This document shows positions 7,174 to 18,731 of a stretch of DNA of 64,000 nucleotides, piece by piece. The DNA lies in NCBI GenBank assembly GCA_019915015.1, contig JAHBBC010000029.1, positions 62,001 to 126,000 on the forward strand, written 5' to 3'. The position numbers and the translations under genes are program-made. The DNA is from Auriscalpium vulgare. Lineage: Eukaryota > Basidiomycota > Agaricomycetes > Russulales > Auriscalpiaceae. The notes beneath the pieces are model-generated. The model ran no database searches, was not told the origin of the DNA, and saw only the letters and a list, made by a program, of their open reading frames with translations. Within the stretch, counting starts at the first letter, position 1. Each line of letters opens with the position of its first letter.

Positions 7174-7179
7174 TATAAA
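7174..7179 (+). promoter_or_regulatory. TATA box of precursor gene 1
   Basis: TATAAA in the context CTCTATAAAAGTGGAGC, 155 bp before the ATG. The same word occurs at the same relative place before genes 2 and 3. Confidence 0.7.
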
Positions 7180-7333
7180 AGTGGAGCCTTCATGTTTTGG
7201 GATCTCCAGCTGAGCTCACCTTCGTTCATCCTTTTCTCGGTACAGGATACCATTGGTGCATTCTTCCACGATCCTTCCTGCAGTTTATCCTTTCGACGAT
7301 TTATCTTTCATCACATCCATTCTTTAATCGACA

Positions 7334-9131
7334 ATGCACGCCTCCACTGTTGCTCTGACTCTCGCCCTCGTGGCCGCCTCCGCATCCGCTGCACCCCTTC
7401 CGACGAACCCTCAGTGAGTTTCTGTCCGCTCGCACATCAAACGAGCCTGACAAGTGGACTATGTCCTCAGGCCTGTCTTCGCGCGCAGCGTCGGCCAGGA
7501 TATTGAGAACGTTGCCGGTGACGCCATCAGCGCCCTGCCCACGATCCTCAAGCTCGCCAAGTTCATCCCTTTCCGGTGCGTCCTCTGTGCGAATGTTTAC
7601 TTATACGCGGAAATCTAACTCGGGTCTACAGCCGCGAGGACGAGTTTGAGGCTCGCGATATTGGTTCAGACATCGAGAACGTTGCCGGTGATGCCATCAG
7701 CGCCCTGCCTACCATCCTCAAATTCGCCAAGTTCCTGAAGCGCGAGGAGGTCGACGTTCGCGGCATCGGCTCGGACATCGAGACCGTCGCCGGCGACGCG
7801 GCCAAGTTCCTCCCTCTCCTCGCTGGGTTCCTCAAGCGCGACGTCGGTTCAGACATCGAGAACATTGCCGGTGACGCGGCCAGCTTCCTCCCCACCATCC
7901 TCAAGTTCGCCAAGTTCCTGAAGCGCGAGGAGGTTGAGGAGCGCTCTGTTGGCTCAGACATCGAAAACGTTGCCGGTGACGCGATCAGCGTCCTGCCCAC
8001 CATCCTCAAGTTCGCCAAGTTCCTGAAGCGCGAGGAGGTCGACGTTCGCGGCATCGGCTCGGACATCGAGACCGTCGCCGGCGACGCGGCCAAGTTCCTC
8101 CCCCTCCTCGCTTCATTCCTCAAGCGCGAGGAGGTTGAGGGGCGCAGCATCGGCTCAGACATCGAGACCGTCGCCGGTGACGCTGCCAAGTTCCTCCCTC
8201 TTCTCGCTGGGTTCCTCAAGCGCGAGGAGGTTGAGGGGCGCTCTGTCGGTTCGGACATCGAGAACGTTGCCGGCGACGCCATCAGCGTCCTGCCCACCAT
8301 CCTCAAGTTCGCCAAGTTCCTGAAGCGCGAGGAGGTCGACGTTCGCGGCATCGGCTCGGACATCGAGACCGTCGCCGGCGACGCGGCCAAGTTCCTCCCT
8401 CTCCTCGCTGGGTTCCTCAAGCGCGACGTCGGTTCGGACATCGAGAACATCGCCGGCGACGCGGCCAGCTTCCTCCCCACCATCCTCAAGTTCGCCAAGT
8501 TCCTGAAGCGCGAGGAGGTTGAGGAGCGCTCTGTTGGCTCAGACATCGAGAACGTTGCCGGTGACGCGATCAGCGTCCTGCCCACCATCCTCAAGTTCGC
8601 CAAGTTCCTGAAGCGCGAGGAGGTCGACGTTCGCGGCATCGGCTCAGACATCGAGACCGTCGCCGGTGACGCGGCCAAGTTCCTCCCTCTCCTCGCTGGG
8701 TTCCTCAAGCGCGATGTCGGTTCGGACATCGAGAGCGTTGCCGGTGACGCGATCAGCGTCCTGCCCACCATCCTCAAGTTCGCCAAGTTCCTGAAGCGCG
8801 AGGAGGTCGACGTTCGCGGCATCGGCTCGGACATTGAGACCGTCGCCGGCGATGCGGCCAAGTTCCTCCCTCTCCTCGCTGGGTTCCTCAAGCGCGAGGA
8901 GGTTGAGGGGCGCTCTGTCGGTTCGGACATCGAGACCGTTGCCGGGGACGCCATCAGCGCATTGCCCACCATCCTCAAGTTCGCCAAATTCCTTCCCATC
9001 AGGTTCGTAATCGCACTGCTTCTTGTTGTCCCGAGCTTCATTCTGACGAGATCATCTCAACTTTGTCCAGGCGCGAGTACGAGAGCATCGTGGCAGACAT
9101 GGCCGCACGCTCGATTAACGACTTGGATTAG
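7334..9131 (+). CDS. KEX2-processed repeat peptide precursor 1
   Basis: Exons 7334-7413, 7471-7575, 7632-9002 and 9071-9131 give 538 residues. The signal peptide is MHASTVALTLALVAASASA. About 15 units of 28-36 residues follow, most ending FLKR. Typical units open with an acidic spacer ending in Arg (EEVDVR, EEVEGR, EEVEER), then GxGSDIExVAGDA and a hydrophobic end such as FLPLLAGFL or ISVLPTILKFAKFL. Three units lack the spacer and begin DVGSDIE. The tail REYESIVADMAARSINDLD is not repeated. Lys-Arg is the Kex2 site in the late Golgi, so the likely products are many secreted copies of amphipathic peptides. The layout matches fungal KEX2-processed repeat proteins, such as Ustilago Rep1, in design but not in sequence. 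The peptide function is unknown. Confidence 0.85.
7477..9008 (+). repeat. In-frame tandem repeats of precursor 1
   Basis: About 15 units of 84-108 bp. Two unit types alternate: one ending AAKFLPLLAGFLKR and one ending LPTILKFAKFLKR. Units starting GACGTTCGCGGCATCGGCTC recur at about 7753, 8041, 8341, 8629 and 8809. The near-identical DNA implies recent unit duplication or gene conversion. Confidence 0.9.
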
Positions 9132-9884
9132 ATTGATGACCTTCATGACCTTTTATTTTTGTCGATTTATTGGGATCTGCAGTATTTATCACTTCGTTAC
9201 ATCTCTCATTAATGGATGCACCTTTGGTTTTGTCTCGGGAATATTACTCGCGAATCGTGCTTGCTAGCGTTCTTCCTATCCCCTGCGCCTACAACAGCCA
9301 GAGCATGATAGAGGCGCACGATACTATAGTACATGTCCCTTGGCGGGTGAAGCTCCGCAACGTCCACTATATTGGCCGAAACCTCGGCCGTCATCGTGGG
9401 CCACTACTAGTCCTTTATTGGTCTCTCGTTGAAGACGGTCACCCCGGAGGTAAGTACCTGCTCCTCCGAGTCTAACATATGATTATCTTCGTGCTTGTTC
9501 CCGGAGCAGGGATGCTCCATTATTTACAGTCAGAGAAGAGGTTCCTAGTCACTAGTGGCCGCGTGGCAGCGAGTGTGACCGCATATATGTCAGTAATAGT
9601 CCTGCCAACTTTGAACTAAGTAGGGTGTCTTGTTCGGAATCCGATCGAAGCATAGGCATGACCCTCAAGGCACACCACACCATAGCCTCGCGCAAGAATA
9701 GCCTCAGCGCATTCCAGGATAGCTATGCGTGTGGTATTAGAAGAAGAGACACAAGACCTGAGCTGGGTAGCCGACGGCCGCAAAGCAAAGCAGACAGGGA
9801 ACAAAATGCACGGCAACAACGCGCTTCGCCAGGTCCGCAAGGAGTAGAGAAAAGGCGCGGCGAGTAAGGGGAGAGGTTTAAGGT
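9132..9884. other. 3' flank of precursor gene 1, shared between blocks
   Basis: No gene is seen. Segments match the 3' flanks of the other two blocks (13115-13796 and 16183-16850), including the stop-proximal ATTGATGACCTT and the CCGATC...CACACCAT stretch near 9640-9690. Confidence 0.6.
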
Positions 9885-9934
9885 AGACGAAGACGCGCCG
9901 GCGGCCGGGCGGGGTGCTCTTGCCCGTGCGCACG
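9885..9934 (-). pseudogene. Remnant of SRRM1-like 3' end, block 1
   Basis: About 50 bp resembles the last exon of the intact gene at 16851-16910, with shared GACGAGGACGC-like and GTGCTCTTGC...GTGCGCACGAC words. The similarity stops abruptly at about 9934. Confidence 0.5.
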
Positions 9935-10862
9935 ACTAGTAGTCTCCGTAGCTGACTTTGACATATGTTACTATCTGTCTTGTGCACAGCTCCTGTGTAT
10001 GTCGGCTGGTGTCATAATTGCCGCGGGGAACTTTCCTGTACTACTCACCGATTTCGAGTTCGGCGGACCAGATTGAAGTGCAATGGGCGAGCACGCAGCA
10101 GTCGTGAGCCGCGAAGGGCGTTATCGCCAAGATGCCGGCAGGTGACCGGCGACCAGTAACGTGTGTATCTTCGGTCTGAGGTCTCACGTCACAGTGCAGC
10201 GTGCGGGCCGCGAGATTCGGTTGGGCGGCCTAGTACGCATGTTCAGTCGTGGCAAGCGAAGGTGCATTTACATACTTACATGACACCTTGTATGCACCGA
10301 GTTGCTAGGCTGGCCTTTGCATCGAAACCGAATGCCCATGCTTTCTGAACGGCGGGAGACAGGGAAGGCCAGAGTAGGGGCTGCCGGAGGCCCCGGGGAC
10401 AAAATAAGCCAGGAAGCGTGAGGATGGTCGAACACCAGAGGAAATTGGATCAAATTTTCGTCCGGCACCCTGAAAAACACCGGCCACTCACATCTAAACT
10501 TCTCGAGTACCCGGCAACCCAAAGACGACGCAGCGGCGCGTTGTAGCCTCCATCGATCGCAAACGCACGTCCGCTCGTAGATAGATGCAGACTGACTAAA
10601 GACCACAGGTCGTTATGCAGGTTGAGCTCCTGGAGTAAAGCACTCTCAGAACCAAGTCCCAGGCTCACCAACGTCAAAGCCAAAGTAAGTATACATACAG
10701 GGATCCTGAACTCTGCAAAGCCAGCCCACGCGGCCACTGTTTCCGGTCCAGGTCCTGTCCCAGTCATATCCATTTGCTGGGAGTGGAAAAAGAGAGAACG
10801 CCATCTTGCCGCAGCCAGTGGAGAGAGGGAGAGCGAAGGGGCTGGTAGTCATGACTACTAGT
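9935..10862. mobile_element. Possible inserted segment with 10 bp inverted ends
   Basis: The similarity between blocks breaks here. The segment begins ACTAGTAGTC (9935-9944) and a perfect inverted copy, GACTACTAGT, lies at 10853-10862. No transposase was found and no clear target-site duplication. The inverted ends could be chance: a palindrome, TAGTCATGACTA, overlaps the right one. Treat it as unexplained inserted DNA of about 0.93 kb. Confidence 0.3.
10450..10773 (-). CDS. Unrecognised open frame inside the inserted segment
   Basis: A 107-residue frame beginning MDMTGTGPGPETVAAW, with a hydrophobic stretch (RIPVCILTLALTLVSLGLG) and a segment SGRAFAIDGGYNAPLRR. Two stretches could be introns: GTATGT...CTCCAG near 10630-10690, and GTGAGTGG...TTTCAG near 10470-10490. 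The coding status is therefore unclear. No family is recognised. It may be a small membrane protein, a gene fragment or noise. Confidence 0.2.
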   Translation of the reverse strand: MDMTGTGPGPETVAAWAGFAEFRIPVCILTLALTLVSLGLGSESALLQELNLHNDLWSLVSLHLSTSGRAFAIDGGYNAPLRRLWVAGYSRSLDVSGRCFSGCRTKI

Positions 10863-11034
10863 GTCGAGTCCACCATCCAGAATGACTTTTCACGTACTCA
10901 GCTGGCAATGCTCATCGGTCTAGACGCTAAAGCCTTAGCAGTGCAGACGGCTTACCTCCCTTTCTTGTTATCCAATATACTTCCAAAGCCTTCCAGCCTC
11001 AAGCTGGCCTTAAGCTCAAGCTTGGCGTGGAGGA

Positions 11035-11440
11035 GCCGCCGGCCGCCGGGGTGGAAAATTAGTCACGTGCACCGTGCTACCGCCAGAGCCGAGTGGCAGA
11101 GCCGAGTGGCATCAGGTGGCACCCCAGCGCGCTCCGGCGTCTTGCCTTCTTGGCATCACTGCCGTCCCGCCCGCTGTACGGCGAGCGCTCCACCGACGGC
11201 GAACGCCCACGACTTGCCTGGGGCTGGGCTCGCTTTCTGCCACCCGGGGCTCATGCCGCATGCGCCTCGGGCTCTCAGACTTGCCTTAGGTGCGCCTAGC
11301 GGGGCACTCCCGATCCAGATGCCGGTTGCGCGGTGAAGACGAGTACCGGCGGTGGCGTGCGGCTGCGCCGGCGGGGTGGCGGGCGCCGGGCTGCGCGTGC
11401 GCGAGTGGCCACGTGCGGGGATGGGGAGCGTGAGCGGGCG
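11035..11440 (-). pseudogene. Degenerate copy of SRRM1-like gene 3' part, block 1/2
   Basis: This stretch aligns by eye with 16860-17790 of the intact gene, with internal deletions. It shares GCGAGCGCTCCACCGACGGC, GGGGCTGGGCTCGCTTTCTG, the CTCGGGCTC runs, and GTGCGGCTGCGCCGG followed by CTGCGCGTGCGCGAG. The SR reading frame is broken. A short direct repeat, GCCGAGTGGCA, occurs at 11088-11110. Confidence 0.75.
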
Positions 11441-12056
11441 TACCATTTTTTTGTTCGGCCTACATGACCATCCTGGACAAGCCACAGGGACGTCGTGCGC
11501 TCTGGGAGGGTGGATATCAGAGCATCTCGAGATTGAAGCCACGAAGAGCTCTGCTACTATCTGGTCAGCAGTACTGCCACATTTTCTGCCACACTGCCTT
11601 TTGATCGTCGTAACTCTCGCCTAGTGCGGGCGGCCTTGGCGTCGCGAGGCCATCATGGTCGTGGTCCTGTCTGGAGGCGGCTAGTAGGCGGTGGAACGAC
11701 TGTCTTCCGTAATGGAGATTCGTTCTGCGCTTCCTCTGCTCTGTCCTCTGCTCCCACCGGTACCTGTGGCGTTTCACCTTCTGTGGCGTTTCGATTGCAG
11801 GGCATTACAGGTTTTTATTTTTGTTTGTTTCTAGACACAGACTGCTTCACAGAAATGGCTGGCACCCGCTGGTAGCGACCATCAGCGCGGAGAGAGCAAG
11901 CCAGTATGTAAGTACTATCTTTTTCGAGCGTTTCACTGACCAGAACCGTATGCCGCCGAACATCATATATGTTTGATTGATACCCAGCATCTTTACGGGA
12001 TGACGGAGGGTTCAGAGTTTGTTTCACAGCGCACTCGCCCGGCGTACGTCTTTCTC
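11441..12056. other. Upstream flank of precursor gene 2
   Basis: No gene is seen. The stretch is closely similar to 14140-14674, sharing AGCCACGAAGAGCTCTG, the GCCATCATGGTCGTGGTCCT word and TGTCTTCCGTAATGGA. It probably contains the promoter of gene 2. Confidence 0.6.
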
Positions 12057-12063
12057 TATAAAA
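12057..12063 (+). promoter_or_regulatory. TATA box of precursor gene 2
   Basis: TATAAAA within TTCTCTATAAAAGTAGAGC, 153 bp before the ATG. The context is identical to gene 3. Confidence 0.7.
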
Positions 12064-12215
12064 GTAGAGCTTTTATCTCTCGGGTCCTCCAGCTGCGCTC
12101 ACCTTCGTTCCATTCTTTCTCGGTACAGGCTACCACCGGTGCATTTTTGACGATCATTCCTGCAGTTTTTCTTTTTGACGACTCATCTTTCATCACCTCC
12201 ATCCATTAATCGACA

Positions 12216-13114
12216 ATGCACGCCTCCACTGTTGCTCTGACTCTCGCCCTCGTGGCCGCCACCGCGTCTGCTGCACCCAACCCTGAGTGAGTGTCTGTCC
12301 GCTCGCACATCACACGGCTCAGAGCCTAATCGAGTTCACTTCACCTTCAGACCTGTCTTCGCTCGCGGCATAGGCCATGACATCGAGAACGTTGCCGGCG
12401 ATGCGGCCAGCATCCTGCCTACGGTCCTGAAGTTCCTCAAGCGCCATGAGGAGGTCGACGCCCGCGGCATCGGCAAAACCATCGAGCATATCGCCGGTGA
12501 CGCGACGAACCTGCTCCCTCTCCTCCTCCTCAAGCGCGAGGTCGACGCGCGCGGCCTCGGCAAAACCCTCGAGCATGTCGCCGGTGACGCGGTGAACCTG
12601 CTCCCTCTCTTCCTCCTCAAGCGCGAGGCAGAGGCTCGCGGCATCGGCAAAACAATCGAGCATGTCGCCGGTGACGCGGCGAACCTGCTCCCTCTCTTCC
12701 TCCTCAAGCGCGACATAGAGGCTCGCGGCTTCGGCAAAACCCTCGAGCATGTCGCCGGTGACGCGGCGAACCTGCTCCCTCTCTTCCTCAAGCGCGAGGT
12801 AGAGGCTCGCGGCTTCGGCAAAACCCTCGAGCATATCGCCGGTGACGCGACGAACCTGCTCCCTCTCTTCCTCCTGAAGCGCGAGGAGGTTGAAGCTCGC
12901 GGTGTCGGCAAGGACATCGAGAACGTTGCCGGGGACGCTATCAACACATTGCCCACCATCCTCAAGTTCGCCAAATTCCTTCCAATCAGGTTCGTACTTG
13001 CACTGCTTGTTGCCCTAGCTTCATTTTGACGAGTTCACCTCGAATTTGTACAGGCGCGAGTACGAGAGCATCGTGACAGACATGGCTGCACGCTCGATTA
13101 ACGACTTGGATTAG
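12216..13114 (+). CDS. KEX2-processed repeat peptide precursor 2
   Basis: Exons 12216-12286, 12351-12989 and 13054-13114 give 256 residues. The signal peptide MHASTVALTLALVAATASA is nearly identical to that of gene 1. Seven units follow. The middle five are 28-31 residues long, have spacers such as EVEAR or HEEVDAR and cores of the type GxGKTxEHxAGDA, and end LLPLFLLKR. The first and last units keep DIENVAGDA as in gene 1. The tail REYESIVTDMAARSINDLD is shared. Compared with gene 1 the core replaces SD with KT and is shorter. Same inferred processing: signal peptidase, then Kex2 at Lys-Arg. Confidence 0.85.
12372..12988 (+). repeat. In-frame tandem repeats of precursor 2
   Basis: Seven units of about 84-96 bp; the middle five are nearly identical in DNA (GGCAAAAC...ATCGAGCAT...GCCGGTGACGCG). 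Confidence 0.9.
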
Positions 13115-13796
13115 ATTGATGACCTTACACATATTTGTCGATTTAACGGGACCTGCAGTATTTATCACTCTCGTTTATTAATGCACCTTTGCTTGTCTCG
13201 GGAATAATCTTCGCGCAGTGTGCTTGCCAACAAGCCGACATCGTGGGCTCACTGGGATCTTGGCATTGAAGATGCCAGACATAACGGAGGTACCTGCTCC
13301 CTTTAGCATACTACCTCTTCACACAATCTGCTGCCCTTGCCCCGGGCCCCGCGATGGTGGGGCTCCATGCTCAGAGAAGAGGTTCCTGAGTCAGTGAGTT
13401 GCCCGTGCGGCAGCGAGTGTGACCGTACAATCATGATGCGTACATATGTCATCCACGCGTCGCAGAGCACTTCCGCTTGTGTCGGTATGTTCTGCTCGGA
13501 GTCCGATCCTTCGAAGCATCCCACACCATGACCATGCGCAAGAATATCATCGAACACGTTCCATTGTACGCTGGTTGATATAGATACGTGCGGTACTATT
13601 AGAAGAAGCGCAGGGGGAGAAAAGGTAGACACAAGACCGGAGCGCCTGGGTGGCCGACGGCCGCAAAGCAAAGCAAGCGGGGAGCAAACTGCACGAAGAC
13701 AACGGCTTTCCCCGTCGAGATTCATATGGATCCAGGGAAAGTCCGGGGGGCGGCCCGGGGGGGGGGGGGGGGGGACGCGGTGAGAGGTTCCAGGCT
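13115..13796. other. 3' flank of precursor gene 2
   Basis: No gene is seen; similar to 16183-16850 over most of its length. It ends next to a G homopolymer. Confidence 0.6.
13757..13774 (+). repeat. G homopolymer, 18 bases
   Basis: An uninterrupted run of G. It sits where block 2 meets the SRRM1-like remnant. Its length is prone to sequencing error. Confidence 0.85.
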
Positions 13797-14115
13797 GAGG
13801 TAAGCGAGGACGCGCCGGCGGCCTGGCGGCGGGGGAATCACGTGCACGCTGCTACGCCACGCACGCGTCTTCCCTCGTCTTCCGTGCATTGCCGTCTCGC
13901 TGCTGCGGCGAGCGTTCCACCGACGTCGACCACCCACGACGCTGCCTGTGGCTGGGGTCTGCTTTCCGCCAACCGGGGCTCTTGCGGCTGATGGGGCTCG
14001 GGCTCACCTGCCAGCACCTGGGGCTCAGACTCACCTTCAAGTTGCGTCTTAACTGCATGCCTTTGCGCCTCACTGGGCTTCGGCTATGCATGCGCGGGGG
14101 ACATCGGCTGCCTGT
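13797..14115 (-). pseudogene. Degenerate copy of SRRM1-like gene 3' part, block 2/3
   Basis: Aligns by eye with 16855-17560 of the intact gene, with a large internal deletion. The start matches the last-exon region (GAGGACGCGCCGGCGGC); later parts match the SR-repeat region (GCGAGCGTTCCACCGACG, CGACCACCCACGACG, GGGGCTCGGGCTCACCTG). The frame is broken. Confidence 0.75.
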
Positions 14116-14674
14116 GAGGATGGATGCCGGAGCATCTTGAGACTTAAGCCACGAAGAGCTCTGTCTTGTGCTGTCTGGTCAGGCTGCCACATTTTCTGCC
14201 ATACTGTTTTTTTGATTGTCGTAACTGTCGCCTACGATACATGCAGAGGATCTCTTGGCAGGCGGTCTCGGCGTCGGGAAGCCATCATGGTCGTGGTCCT
14301 GTCTGGAGGCGGATAGCTTTGCTACGGAATGATTGTCTTCCGTAATGGATACTCGTTCTGCGCGTCATCTGCTCCCTCACCGGCACCTGTGGCATTTCGA
14401 CCGCAGGGCATTCTATGACTCTATCTTTCCTCACTTTGTAGACCATATTGCCTCACAGTAATGACTTTCGACCCTCAGGAAACGACAATAGTGCAGGGAA
14501 AGAGCAAACCAGTATGTAAGTACTATCTTTCTGGAGCGTTTTACTCACCCGCACCGTATGTCGCCGAACACCACATATGTTTGATAGATTCCCATCATCG
14601 TTATGGATTGACGGAGGGTGCCGAGTTTGTTTCACCGTGCACTCGCCTGCACTCGCCCGGCGTTCGTCTTTCTC
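14116..14674. other. Upstream flank of precursor gene 3
   Basis: No gene is seen; similar to 11525-12056. It probably contains the promoter of gene 3. Confidence 0.6.
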
Positions 14675-14680
14675 TATAAA
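14675..14680 (+). promoter_or_regulatory. TATA box of precursor gene 3
   Basis: TATAAA within TTTCTCTATAAAAGTAGAGC, about 164 bp before the ATG. Confidence 0.7.
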
Positions 14681-14843
14681 AGTAGAGCTTTGATGTCTCG
14701 GGTTCTCCAGCTGCGCTCACCTTCGTTTCATTCTTTCTCGGTACAGGCTACCACTGGTGCATTTTCTGACGACCCTTCCTGCATTTTCATTTGTTTTCGA
14801 CGACTTATCTTCCTTCACATCCATCCATTAATATTAATCGACA

Positions 14844-16182
14844 ATGCGCGCCTCTACTGTTGCTCTGACTCTCGCCCTCGCGGCTGCCTCCGCATCTGCT
14901 GCACCCCTTCCGCCGAGTCTTCCGTGAGTGTCTGTCCGCTCGCACATCATACGAGTCTAACCAAGTGCACTTCACCCATCATTAGCCTCCTCCGCATCTC
15001 CAAACCACCAGTCTCGGTCAGCGGCCTTGATCAGCGCAGCATTGGCTCAACCCTCGAGACCGTCGCAGGCGACGCGGCCAAGCTCCTACCTCTCCTCGCC
15101 GGTTTCCTCAAGCGCGAGGAGCTCGAAGGCCGCGATGTCGGCTCGACCATCGAGACCATTGCCGGCGATGCGGCCAGCATCCTGCCTACGGTTCTCAAGT
15201 TCGCCAAGTTCCTCAAGCGCGAGGAGGATGTTGAGGCTCGCAGCCTCGGCTCAACCCTCGAGGGCATCGCCGAGCACTTCATCCCTGTCATCGGCGGCTT
15301 CCTCAAGCGCGAGGACGTCGACATGGAGGCGCGTGGCCTCTTCGAAAGCTTCATTAAAAGCATCGTCGAGGACCAACCAGGCCCCCTTAATCGTCGCAGC
15401 GTTGGCTCAACCATCGAGACCGTCGCCGGCGACGCGGCCAAGCTCCTACCTCTCCTCGCCGGTTTCCTCAAGCGCGAGGAGCTCGAAGGCCGCGATGTCG
15501 GCTCGACCATCGAGAACATTGCCGGCGATGCGGCCAGCATCCTGCCTACGGTTCTCAAGTTCGCCAAGTTCCTCAAGCGCGAGGAGGATGTTGAGGCTCG
15601 CAGCCTCGGCTCAACCCTCGAGGGCATCGCCGAGCACTTCATCCCTGTCATCGGCAGCTTCCTCAAGCGCGAGGACATCGACATAGAGGCGCGTGGCCTC
15701 TTCGAAAGCTTCATTAAAAGCATCGTCGAGGACCAACCAGGCCCCCTTAACCGGCGCAGCGTTGGCTCAACCATCGAGACCGTCGCCGGCGACGCGGCCA
15801 AGCTCCTACCTCTCCTCGCCGGTTTCCTCAAGCGCGAGGAGCTCGAAGGCCGCGATGTCGGCTCGACCATCGAGACCATTGCCGGCGATGCGGCCAGCAT
15901 CCTGCCCACGGTTCTCAAGTTCGCCAAGTTCCTCAAGCGCGAGGAGGTTGAGGCGCGCGATATCATCGGCCCGGTCATCACGACCGCCGCCGGTGACGTG
16001 GCCAACCTCCTGCCCAGCATTATCCAGGCCATCAAGAACCATGGGCCCTTCACCACGTTCGTGCTCGCACTGCTTCTTCTCCCGAGCTTCATTCTGACGA
16101 AATCATCTCAATTTTTTGCAGGCGCGAGTACGAGAGCCTCGTGGCAGACATGGCTGCGCGCTCGATTAACGACTTGGATTAG
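14844..16182 (+). CDS. KEX2-processed repeat peptide precursor 3
   Basis: Exons 14844-14923, 14986-16056 and 16122-16182 give 403 residues. The signal peptide is MRASTVALTLALAAASASA. The protein is built on a 120-residue super-unit of four different peptides. These are SxGSTxETVAGDAAKLL...FLKR, EELEGRDVGSTIE...FLKR, EEDVEARSLGSTLEGIAEHF...FLKR, and one ending ESFIKSIVEDQPGPLNRR. The super-unit occurs twice in full and a third time in part. Both Lys-Arg and Arg-Arg sites are used. The last unit diverges (IIGPVITTAAGDVANLL), and the dibasic pair before the shared tail REYESLVADMAARSINDLD is Thr-Arg instead of Arg-Arg. Four peptide types from one precursor sets it apart from genes 1 and 2. Confidence 0.85.
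15037..15960 (+). repeat. 360 bp higher-order repeat of precursor 3
   Basis: The 360 bp super-unit starts near 15037, 15397 and 15757. The first two copies differ at only a few bases; the third is cut after two peptides. Confidence 0.9.
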
Positions 16183-16850: not shown

Positions 16851-18731
16851 TCAGGTGGACGAGGACGCTCCGGCGGCGGTGCTGCTCTTGCGCGTGCGCA
16901 CGACCTTATTCCGCAGCGCGCGCTCCTTGAGCTCATTCTCGCGGCGCTCGAGCTCATCGCGGCTCGGCTCTTGCGGCCCCTTCACGCACAGCCAAAAAAC
17001 GACGAACACATGCACATTAACATTTCACGTCAGACGCGCTGCGAGGCTACGACGTACCTCCCCACCTTCGCCTCTCCGCTTCTCCGCCTCCGCCGCCTGG
17101 CCCTTGATCTTGAGCCCGCCCGCGCCGCTCGCGCTGTCTTTGCCCCTGCCCGCAGGCGAGCGCGACCGGCGCGGGCTGCGGCTCGCACTGCGCCGACGCT
17201 GCCTGTTGCGGTCGGCCCTCCGCCCTGAGGCACCCTGCCTGTCGGGCGTGCGGCTCCTCGACCGCGCCCTGCCGTCCTCCTTGTCCTTGCCGTTCCGCCT
17301 GCTGCGCTGCGGCAAGCGCTCTACGGACGGCGACCGCCCACGACGTCGTCTGGGGCTGGGGCTTGCTTTCCGCCGTCCAGGGCTCTTGCGCCTCGGGCTC
17401 GCCTTGCGCCTAACCGGGCTGCTCGGGCTTGACTTGCGCCTGATGGGGCTCGGGCTCGCCTGCCGCCTAGCGGGGCTGATACTTGCCTTGCGCCTTGCGG
17501 GGCTCGGGCTGGCTTTGCGCCTCACGGGGCTCGGGCTGGGCCTGCGCGGGCTCCCGGGGCTGCGGGAGCGGCTCCTGCTGTCGCTCAGCCGCCGCCGCCG
17601 CGCGGGCGGGCTGCGACTGTCGCGCTCGCGCTCCCGATCCCGGGTACGCGTGCGCCGGTCGCGCGGCGAGGACGAGTAGGAGGGCGAGCGGCGGCGGCGG
17701 CGCGTGGGCGGCGTGCGGCTGCGCGGGCGCGGTGGCGGGCTGCGCGTGCGCGAGCGGCCGCGGGTGCGTGGGGGCGGGGAGCGCGAGGAGCGCGCGCTGG
17801 AGGGCGTGCGGCGGCGCGGGGGCGGGGTGCGCGAGCGGAATCGCTGGCGCTGTGGTGTGCTGTCAGTTAGTTTGGTTTCTGATGCGTGGATGAGGGAGGC
17901 ACTGACCCCTCCACCACCTCCGCCTCCGCCTCCTCCGCCTCCACCATTTCCACCGCCTCCGCCTCTATTCCCCCACCCGCCATCGCGTGGTCGGTCGTTC
18001 CGGTCGTCGTTCCCGAACCCGCCGCGCCCACGACGCCCCCGTCCACCTCGTCCTCGTCCGCCGCCGCGGCTGTCGCGACCCTCTCGCTCACGATCGCGGA
18101 CCTCGTCGAGGCGGGCTCTGCGGTCGCGCTCCTCCAGTGCCCGATTGTCGTTCTGATTGTGCCGGCGCATTTCCTCCTTCTTCTCTTCGACAAACGCACT
18201 CGGGATACCCACGGTCGACTCCTGCGCATCTAGGAGCAGCGTCCATAACGCCTGCATGAATATTGCCGTTGAATTTGTGAGGAAACCAGTGAGGCTGATT
18301 TGTATCTTCTTCGGGTCGGGGAGCTGTGTGACGTAGCGTCAGGGGAGTAGAAAGACAGTATGGATGTACCACGCACCGGTTGGGAGTCATCCTCGAGGAG
18401 GCCCATAGCATATTCTACCACAACCTCGTCCTCAAAGCCTACGAGCTCGACGACCTTCTTCGCAACCCACGGCCGGATGACCTCCAGGTTCACTTTGCGC
18501 ATGTCGACCTGGTACGAGCTCAGATCATGTGGCCCACAACTCGTGCTGAGAAAGGACGTACCTTCTTGTCGAAGATGGCAGGAAACTTCATGCTCTTGAG
18601 CAGCTTGACCTCCTTGTCGGAGAACCTGCGGTCCTGGTCGGCAGAAGTGCCCTTGAAAAATCCTGGAGATGCAAACCGTGAGCACACTTGGACTATGGGC
18701 GAGTAAGAAGGGGCGCACCGGCGTCAGCCAT
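16851..18731 (-). CDS. SRRM1: PWI-domain SR-repeat splicing protein (SRRM1/SRm160 type)
   Basis: A nuclear splicing co-activator type: the PWI domain binds nucleic acid and the SR repeats bind other SR proteins. Exons 18731-18719 (13 bp), 18662-18562, 18508-18377, 18323-17907, 17849-17058 and 16979-16851 give 527 residues. The N-terminus MADAGFFKGTSADQDRRFSD leads into the PWI domain with VNLEVIRPWVAKKVVELVGF and PDPKKIQISLTGFL. A Gly/Arg-rich part follows, then long Arg-Ser-Pro repeats (residues about 200-480), and a conserved end including ELERRENELKERALRNKVV. The 57 bp stretch 17850-17906 is open in frame but has perfect intron ends and is taken as an intron. The last exon is confirmed by its charged helix. 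The start lies head-to-head with the gene at 19200. Confidence 0.85.

Follow-up and report, generated by a model that had tools for sequence, protein, structure and literature searches.

Three tandem genes for predicted KEX2-processed precursors of repeated amphipathic peptides in Auriscalpium vulgare

The three genes and their layout

The window analyzed here is a 64,000-nucleotide stretch of Auriscalpium vulgare, a mushroom that rots pine cones (assembly GCA_019915015.1, contig JAHBBC010000029.1, positions 62,001 to 126,000 of the forward strand). Positions 7334-16182 of this window, running exactly from the ATG of a first gene through the stop of a third, hold three intron-containing genes in tandem on the plus strand, each of which appears to encode a KEX2-processed repeat protein (KEP). 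Three tandem repeat precursors had been placed in this interval by a sequence-only reading; its coordinates are exact and the gene models are open throughout. GT..AG introns were picked by a hand-limited search for an open frame, and the models rest on frames and splice signals. Gene 1 (7334..9131) encodes 538 aa with 15 units and carries introns at 7414-7470, 7576-7631 and 9003-9070. Gene 2 (12216..13114) encodes 256 aa with 7 units, interrupted at 12287-12350 and 12990-13053, while gene 3 (14844..16182) encodes 403 aa with 11 units and has introns at 14924-14985 and 16057-16121. The start, first intron, last intron and tail of gene 2 agree with a public A. vulgare protein, P0001.

A signal peptide is predicted in every precursor. 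That of gene 1 covers residues 1-19 (7334..7390, plus strand), with a cut after A-S-A placed by inspection, and the equivalent plus-strand positions are 12216-12272 in gene 2 and 14844-14900 in gene 3. The Kyte-Doolittle 11-residue maxima are 2.33, 2.33 and 2.11 for genes 1, 2 and 3, and all three stretches end in A-x-A, which describes composition only. The "same signal peptide" of the sequence-only reading is present in each gene, in near-identical rather than identical form. At the opposite end, the last exons (9071..9131, 13054-13114 and 16122-16182, plus strand) encode the shared tail that had been reported, an acidic stretch of 18 residues, EYES[IL]V[AT]DMAARSINDLD, common to all three precursors. 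The 34-base end of the coding region was found in three copies in the window versus none in 100 shuffles. The tails also carry a further hydrophobic-x-x-R site, MAAR ahead of SINDLD, in a sequence nearly unchanged across the three genes, and the tail itself may be a product.

Between signal and tail lie the repeats. Exon 2 of gene 1 (7471..7575) is a single unit flanked by introns, and its end, P-F-R/R, resembles the P-I-R/R with which genes 1 and 2 each close their last unit. The repeat exons, all on the plus strand, are found at 7632..9002 in gene 1 (14 units), 12351..12989 in gene 2 (7 units) and 14986..16056 in gene 3 (11 units). Tandem Repeats Finder gave, besides other nested rows, a 288-base higher-order repeat in gene 1, an 87-base repeat in gene 2 and a 360-base higher-order repeat in gene 3. 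The earlier count of 7-15 units mostly ending Lys-Arg agrees with the 15, 7 and 11 units of these models.

Unit anatomy, cut sites and predicted products

One alignable core type covers 30 of the 33 long units; in gene 3, the 11 units comprise 8 of this main type, 2 of a GLFESF type and 1 of a DIIGPV type. Invariant residues of the 30 main cores include G3, E7 and the hinge P; AGDA is found in 28, and the hinge reads L-P in 28 and I-P in the other 2, so the conserved AGDA core with its Leu-Pro was correctly recognized before. Main cores end in KR in 27/30 cases and in RR in 3/30. Dibasic sites in the three precursors total 32 (27 KR and 5 RR), every one of them at a unit end. Seen alongside the hydrophobic signal stretch with its A-x-A end and the one or more kexin genes of the genome, this regularity gives good sequence support to the proposed KEX2-processed repeat architecture.

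A second boundary, absent from the earlier description, lies at the start of the units. The residue preceding the main core is R in 30/30; this R closes an acidic spacer (EEVDVR, EEVEGR, EELEGR and the like) or the leader, and in 5 cases is the R of KR or RR itself. The 71 arginines of the precursors consist of 32 at P1 of KR/RR, 5 that open an RR pair, 33 single ones and 1 that belongs to a signal peptide, R2 of gene 3. Single arginines stand at a predicted product boundary in 32/33 cases, 3 of which (tail MAAR) were assigned by motif alone; the lone one away from any boundary lies in LPLLR of the gene 3 leader. V, I, L, M or F occupies P4 in 31/33 single-R sites, against a background of 374/1137 residues, but since the repeats are not independent, the hand-counted tally by distinct four-residue contexts, 13/15, is the fairer one. 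Lysine, unlike arginine, occurs inside cores as well, with 46 K not followed by R, and KK and RK are absent. Hydrophobic-x-x-R is interpreted as a loose form of the expanded Kex2 motif, a second predicted cut that would free the cores from the acidic spacers. An expanded LxxR motif and a preference for aliphatic residues at P4 are described for Kex2 (PMC8528282), and mushroom KEPs expressed in yeast were reported to give products apparently cut after single R (PMC9769878).

Kexin cutting followed by Kex1-type trimming is predicted to yield 33 long products of 19-33 residues, 24 of them distinct and all lacking W and C, as well as 25 acidic spacers. Monoisotopic masses predicted for trimmed cores include 2374.278, 2803.537, 2851.501 and 2261.278. 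Amphipathicity was assessed on 11 of the 24 distinct products by comparing the hydrophobic moment with shuffles, the p values being uncorrected. Helical moments, proposed earlier as a check, were significant at 100 degrees (alpha-helical; p<0.05) in 10/11 cores, and none of the 11 was significant at the strand angle of 170 degrees. The eleventh core, from gene 2, gave p=0.055 at 100 degrees and p=0.0016 for the part ahead of its Pro; the moment of the tail was not significant (p=0.088). The alternation of hydrophobic and polar residues that had been noted is borne out as amphipathicity in these 11 cores, with a helical rather than a strand-like period. In ten of the 11, 14-17 residues precede the Pro, and the stretch after it is mostly more hydrophobic and in some cores carries two lysines; across the 11, net charge runs from 0 to -2.

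A 32-residue unit, modeled with a six-row unit alignment, came out as a helix over residues 5-31, with a mean predicted local distance difference test score (pLDDT) of 76, block means of 83-84 over residues 11-30 and a predicted template modeling score (pTM) of 0.29; such a single-helix model says nothing on peptide behavior in water or lipid. A PDB sequence search with one core gave nothing up to E=10, and one with the gene 2 repeat exon returned only two apparently designed repeat proteins (E 0.6-0.67), which were rejected. Based on the periodicity and the model, the cores are predicted to be Pro-hinged, neutral to weakly anionic amphipathic alpha-helices.

Relatives, duplication and genome context

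The sole match at E<=0.001 among 7997 scored candidates was P0001, the hypothetical protein of A. vulgare. Removal of 12497-12802 from gene 2 as an in-frame GT..AG intron yields a protein of 154 aa that by eye differs from P0001 at 3 residues. The frame likewise survives two shorter trial introns that use this donor, which is what a repeat array would produce, so the P0001 model is most likely a gene-finder artefact in which most of the gene 2 repeats were spliced out. Nothing was found when all of gene 3 (up to E=10; 7994 scored candidates) or the gene 1 segment of residues 465-538 (up to E=1; 578 scored candidates) served as the protein query, P0001 being too short to be a candidate in either search. 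Because such searches depend on exact word matches and comparable protein length, they may miss distant or differently sized relatives, and a restriction to Auriscalpium applies only within this database and method. A tblastn search of the genome with gene 2 (14 candidates scored) gave 19 matches, each inside one of the three genes, and no fourth copy was found.

Scanned against Pfam, each precursor returned 4 rows, and all 12 were rejected as repeat artefacts. DsrH scored 28 bits on gene 2 against a cut-off of 24.4 with no single stretch passing, Fibrinogen_BP had one passing stretch on gene 2 with 19.4 bits against a cut-off of 50, and the other ten rows fell under the cut-off. No description of the peptide family was found in the protein searches or in the literature, which was searched by topic rather than by peptide letters; the main texts of two KEP surveys (PMC6339444, PMC7329392), as distinct from their supplementary lists, do not mention Auriscalpium. 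The earlier statement that no described family has this core held in the protein, Pfam and literature searches. The three precursors appear to be an undescribed KEP family whose precursor design is already known.

An alignment of the three genes that covers the upstream part, the leader, exon 1 and intron 1 has 82% mean column identity over 445 columns, and aligned segments surrounding the genes are 76-83% identical. Judged by its alignment, the segment upstream of gene 2 (11487..12345, plus strand), 76% identical to 14098-14976 upstream of gene 3, is a segmental duplication. Two pieces at 11160-11274 and 11351-11434 (strand unassigned), similar to 17288-17400 and 17707-17787 of a PWI/SR-type gene, and further pieces at 13902-14098 are probably relics of tandem segment duplication; since they lie between the three peptide genes, whole segments were probably duplicated in tandem. 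The neighboring PWI/SR-type gene itself lies at 17025-18338, with its PWI domain found by domain scan. After duplication, each gene would have expanded its own repeat block, with periods of 288, 87 and 360 bases. P-[IF]-R/R at an intron closes exon 2 of gene 1 as well as the final unit of both gene 1 and gene 2, a pattern suggestive of an ancestor in which a single core separated the signal exon from the tail exon.

The ratio of nonsynonymous to synonymous change (dN/dS) over 28 cores is 0.44 in the coding frame and 0.95 and 1.96 in the other two sense frames; the opposite strand gives 1.31, 0.54 and 2.42 in its three frames. By gene pairs it is 0.48-0.82, highest within gene 3, in an alignment with imperfect gap placement. 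The coding strand is settled by the introns, the signal peptide, the tail and the annotated relative. Long open antisense frames cross the repeats at 7626-9041 (471 aa), 12336-12974 (212 aa) and 15031-16092 (353 aa), all on the minus strand, and are probably a by-product of GC-rich codon usage in the repeats.

A TATAAAAG box, a TATA box, lies 160 bases 5' of the gene 1 ATG (7174..7181), and the same box is found 159 bases 5' of the gene 2 ATG (12057-12064) and 169 bases 5' of the gene 3 ATG (14675-14682), all on the plus strand. No Rfam match was found within the window. Five scanned frames placed a p24/GOLD gene and a dihydrouridine synthase gene upstream and the PWI/SR-type gene downstream; no biosynthetic cluster was seen in these frames, the window not being annotated as a whole. 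Elsewhere in the genome, a kexin-type gene with S8 and P domains lies on contig C4 (one P-domain match with an adjoining S8 frame), DPPIV matches are present, and 37 S10 peptidase matches were found, among which Kex1 itself was not singled out. UstYa (DUF3328), a companion of cyclised KEPs, gave 14 genome matches, none on the window's contig C29, so linear products are expected. The UstYa matches lie on C1, C4, C9, C15, C18 and C25, with 4 each on C1 and C4, and suggest cyclic RiPP (ribosomally synthesized and post-translationally modified peptide) clusters elsewhere in the genome.

Interpretation and significance

The favored interpretation, given a probability of about 0.6, is that the tandem KEP genes supply kexin-released amphipathic helices that act at membranes or interfaces in defence or competition. 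The three tandemly duplicated genes encode predicted KEX2-processed repeat precursors that, if expressed, would enter the secretory pathway. Kexin would cleave after the KR or RR that closes each unit and, at a slower rate or incompletely, after the single R of the hydrophobic-x-x-R spacer at the unit start, and a Kex1-type carboxypeptidase would remove the basic residues. Most of the peptides released would be Pro-hinged, neutral to weakly anionic amphipathic alpha-helices of 21-29 residues, near-identical with several diversified forms, accompanied by acidic spacer peptides of 5-8 residues. Once extracellular, they would most likely act on membranes or interfaces and serve a litter-decomposing mushroom in defence or competition. 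This activity is proposed on the basis of helical amphipathicity, the hinge, the number of copies and the existence of isoforms.

Several points weigh against this scheme. Usual antimicrobial peptides are cationic, unlike the 11 cores tested. Short amphipathic pieces readily come out as helices in modeling, and the pTM of the single unit is low at 0.29; the model of the gene 2 repeat exon was strand-rich only, although at pLDDT 38 it was too poor and was set aside. The antisense dN/dS of 0.54 makes the selection signal modest, and the strand is not settled by selection alone. Kex2 is reported to disfavor Asp at P3, and the five best P2 alternatives given for it do not include Ala, Gly or Val (PMC8528282); Asp stands at P3 in the VDVR, VDAR and LDQR contexts here. 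Finally, six KEP knock-outs in C. cinerea were described as without phenotype, and the synthetic KEP peptides tested in that study were inactive on five bacterial strains (PMC9769878), in view of which a role at membranes or interfaces in A. vulgare is something we infer.

In an unlikely though serious alternative, the peptides would work as surfactants or form a coat on aerial hyphae or spores, like the Ustilago maydis repellents. The secreted Rep1 precursor has a similar layout, with ten conserved repeats giving many amphipathic peptides, Kex2 sites between them and a distinct terminal fragment (PMC2515848), and the cores here are likewise amphipathic and present in many near-identical copies. 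Rep1, however, yields amyloid-like water-repelling fibrils (PMC8528282), whereas the Auriscalpium cores, compared with Rep1 by description only, have helical periodicity with nothing at 170 degrees and a helical single-unit model. A coat of the Rep1 type is made less likely because the cores look helical, and the Rep1 likeness drawn in the sequence-only reading stands at the level of precursor layout. Receptor signals of a pheromone- or hormone-like kind are improbable. Alpha-factor precursors share the KEP layout, basidiomycete KEPs with STE13 motifs are on record (PMC6339444, PMC9769878), and one spacer here is EAEAR; but this EAEA motif (STE13 dipeptides XA/XP) is found in only 1/25 spacers, W and C are missing from the long products, and the 24 distinct long products of several kinds suit one receptor poorly, a diversity that makes signaling less likely.

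It would be distinctly improbable for the genes to be expressed mainly in a short form, with an intron removing the inner repeats and few peptides made. P0001 is the case for it, but the two shorter introns of the same donor are what is seen when repeats mislead a gene finder, and the part removed retains its cut sites. Even less credence is given to a precursor that stays uncut and functions in one piece as a secreted repeat protein, either in the wall or as an effector. Rsp3 of Ustilago maydis is said to function uncut. This repetitive secreted effector acts on the fungal surface (PMC5923269), yet the Auriscalpium repeat array has no confident fold, and dibasic sites are confined to unit ends in 32/32 cases. 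Returning to released, membrane-active helices, a bolder version is held as tentative and rather doubtful: lineage-specific hinged anionic helices, freed by paired dibasic and hydrophobic-x-x-R kexin cuts, would permeabilize the membranes of competitors or grazers and would have been overlooked as gene finders splice the repeats away.

Among known systems, the KEPs treated by Le Marquer 2019 (PMC6339444), Umemura 2020 (PMC7329392) and Vogt 2022 (PMC9769878) are the closest in design. The A. vulgare precursors share with them a signal peptide (by composition), at least three near-identical units, which is the minimum of the Le Marquer pipeline (PMC6339444), Kex2 sites between the units and a Kex2 gene in the genome. 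They differ in that the protein searches gave no hit beyond Auriscalpium, in their long helical amphipathic cores and in the second, hydrophobic-x-x-R boundary next to an acidic spacer. Ece1p, the candidalysin precursor of Candida albicans, is also secreted and processed by Kex2 and then Kex1, and releases a 31-residue membrane-damaging peptide (PMC5784256). In Ece1p, compared by description only, one hidden stretch is the toxin, whereas the Auriscalpium units are nearly all alike, and Auriscalpium is taken as a saprotroph. Dikaritin (ustiloxin-type) RiPP precursors are of KEP type too, but no UstYa/DUF3328 match lies on the Auriscalpium contig and the cores are much longer.

In conclusion, A. 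vulgare carries a well-defined KEP family of an already known kind with an added excision rule. KEPs are described as widespread with mostly unknown functions, and linear mushroom KEP peptides were detected by Vogt and others (PMC9769878), although few have been detected so far. The Auriscalpium family offers a mass-predictable set of 24 long products, together with a testable two-site excision rule and a biophysical prediction of helix and of membrane or interface activity. It is also a concrete case of a public gene model that probably hides a repeat precursor; since the published counts of KEPs draw on annotated proteins, they would be too low if such hiding is common.

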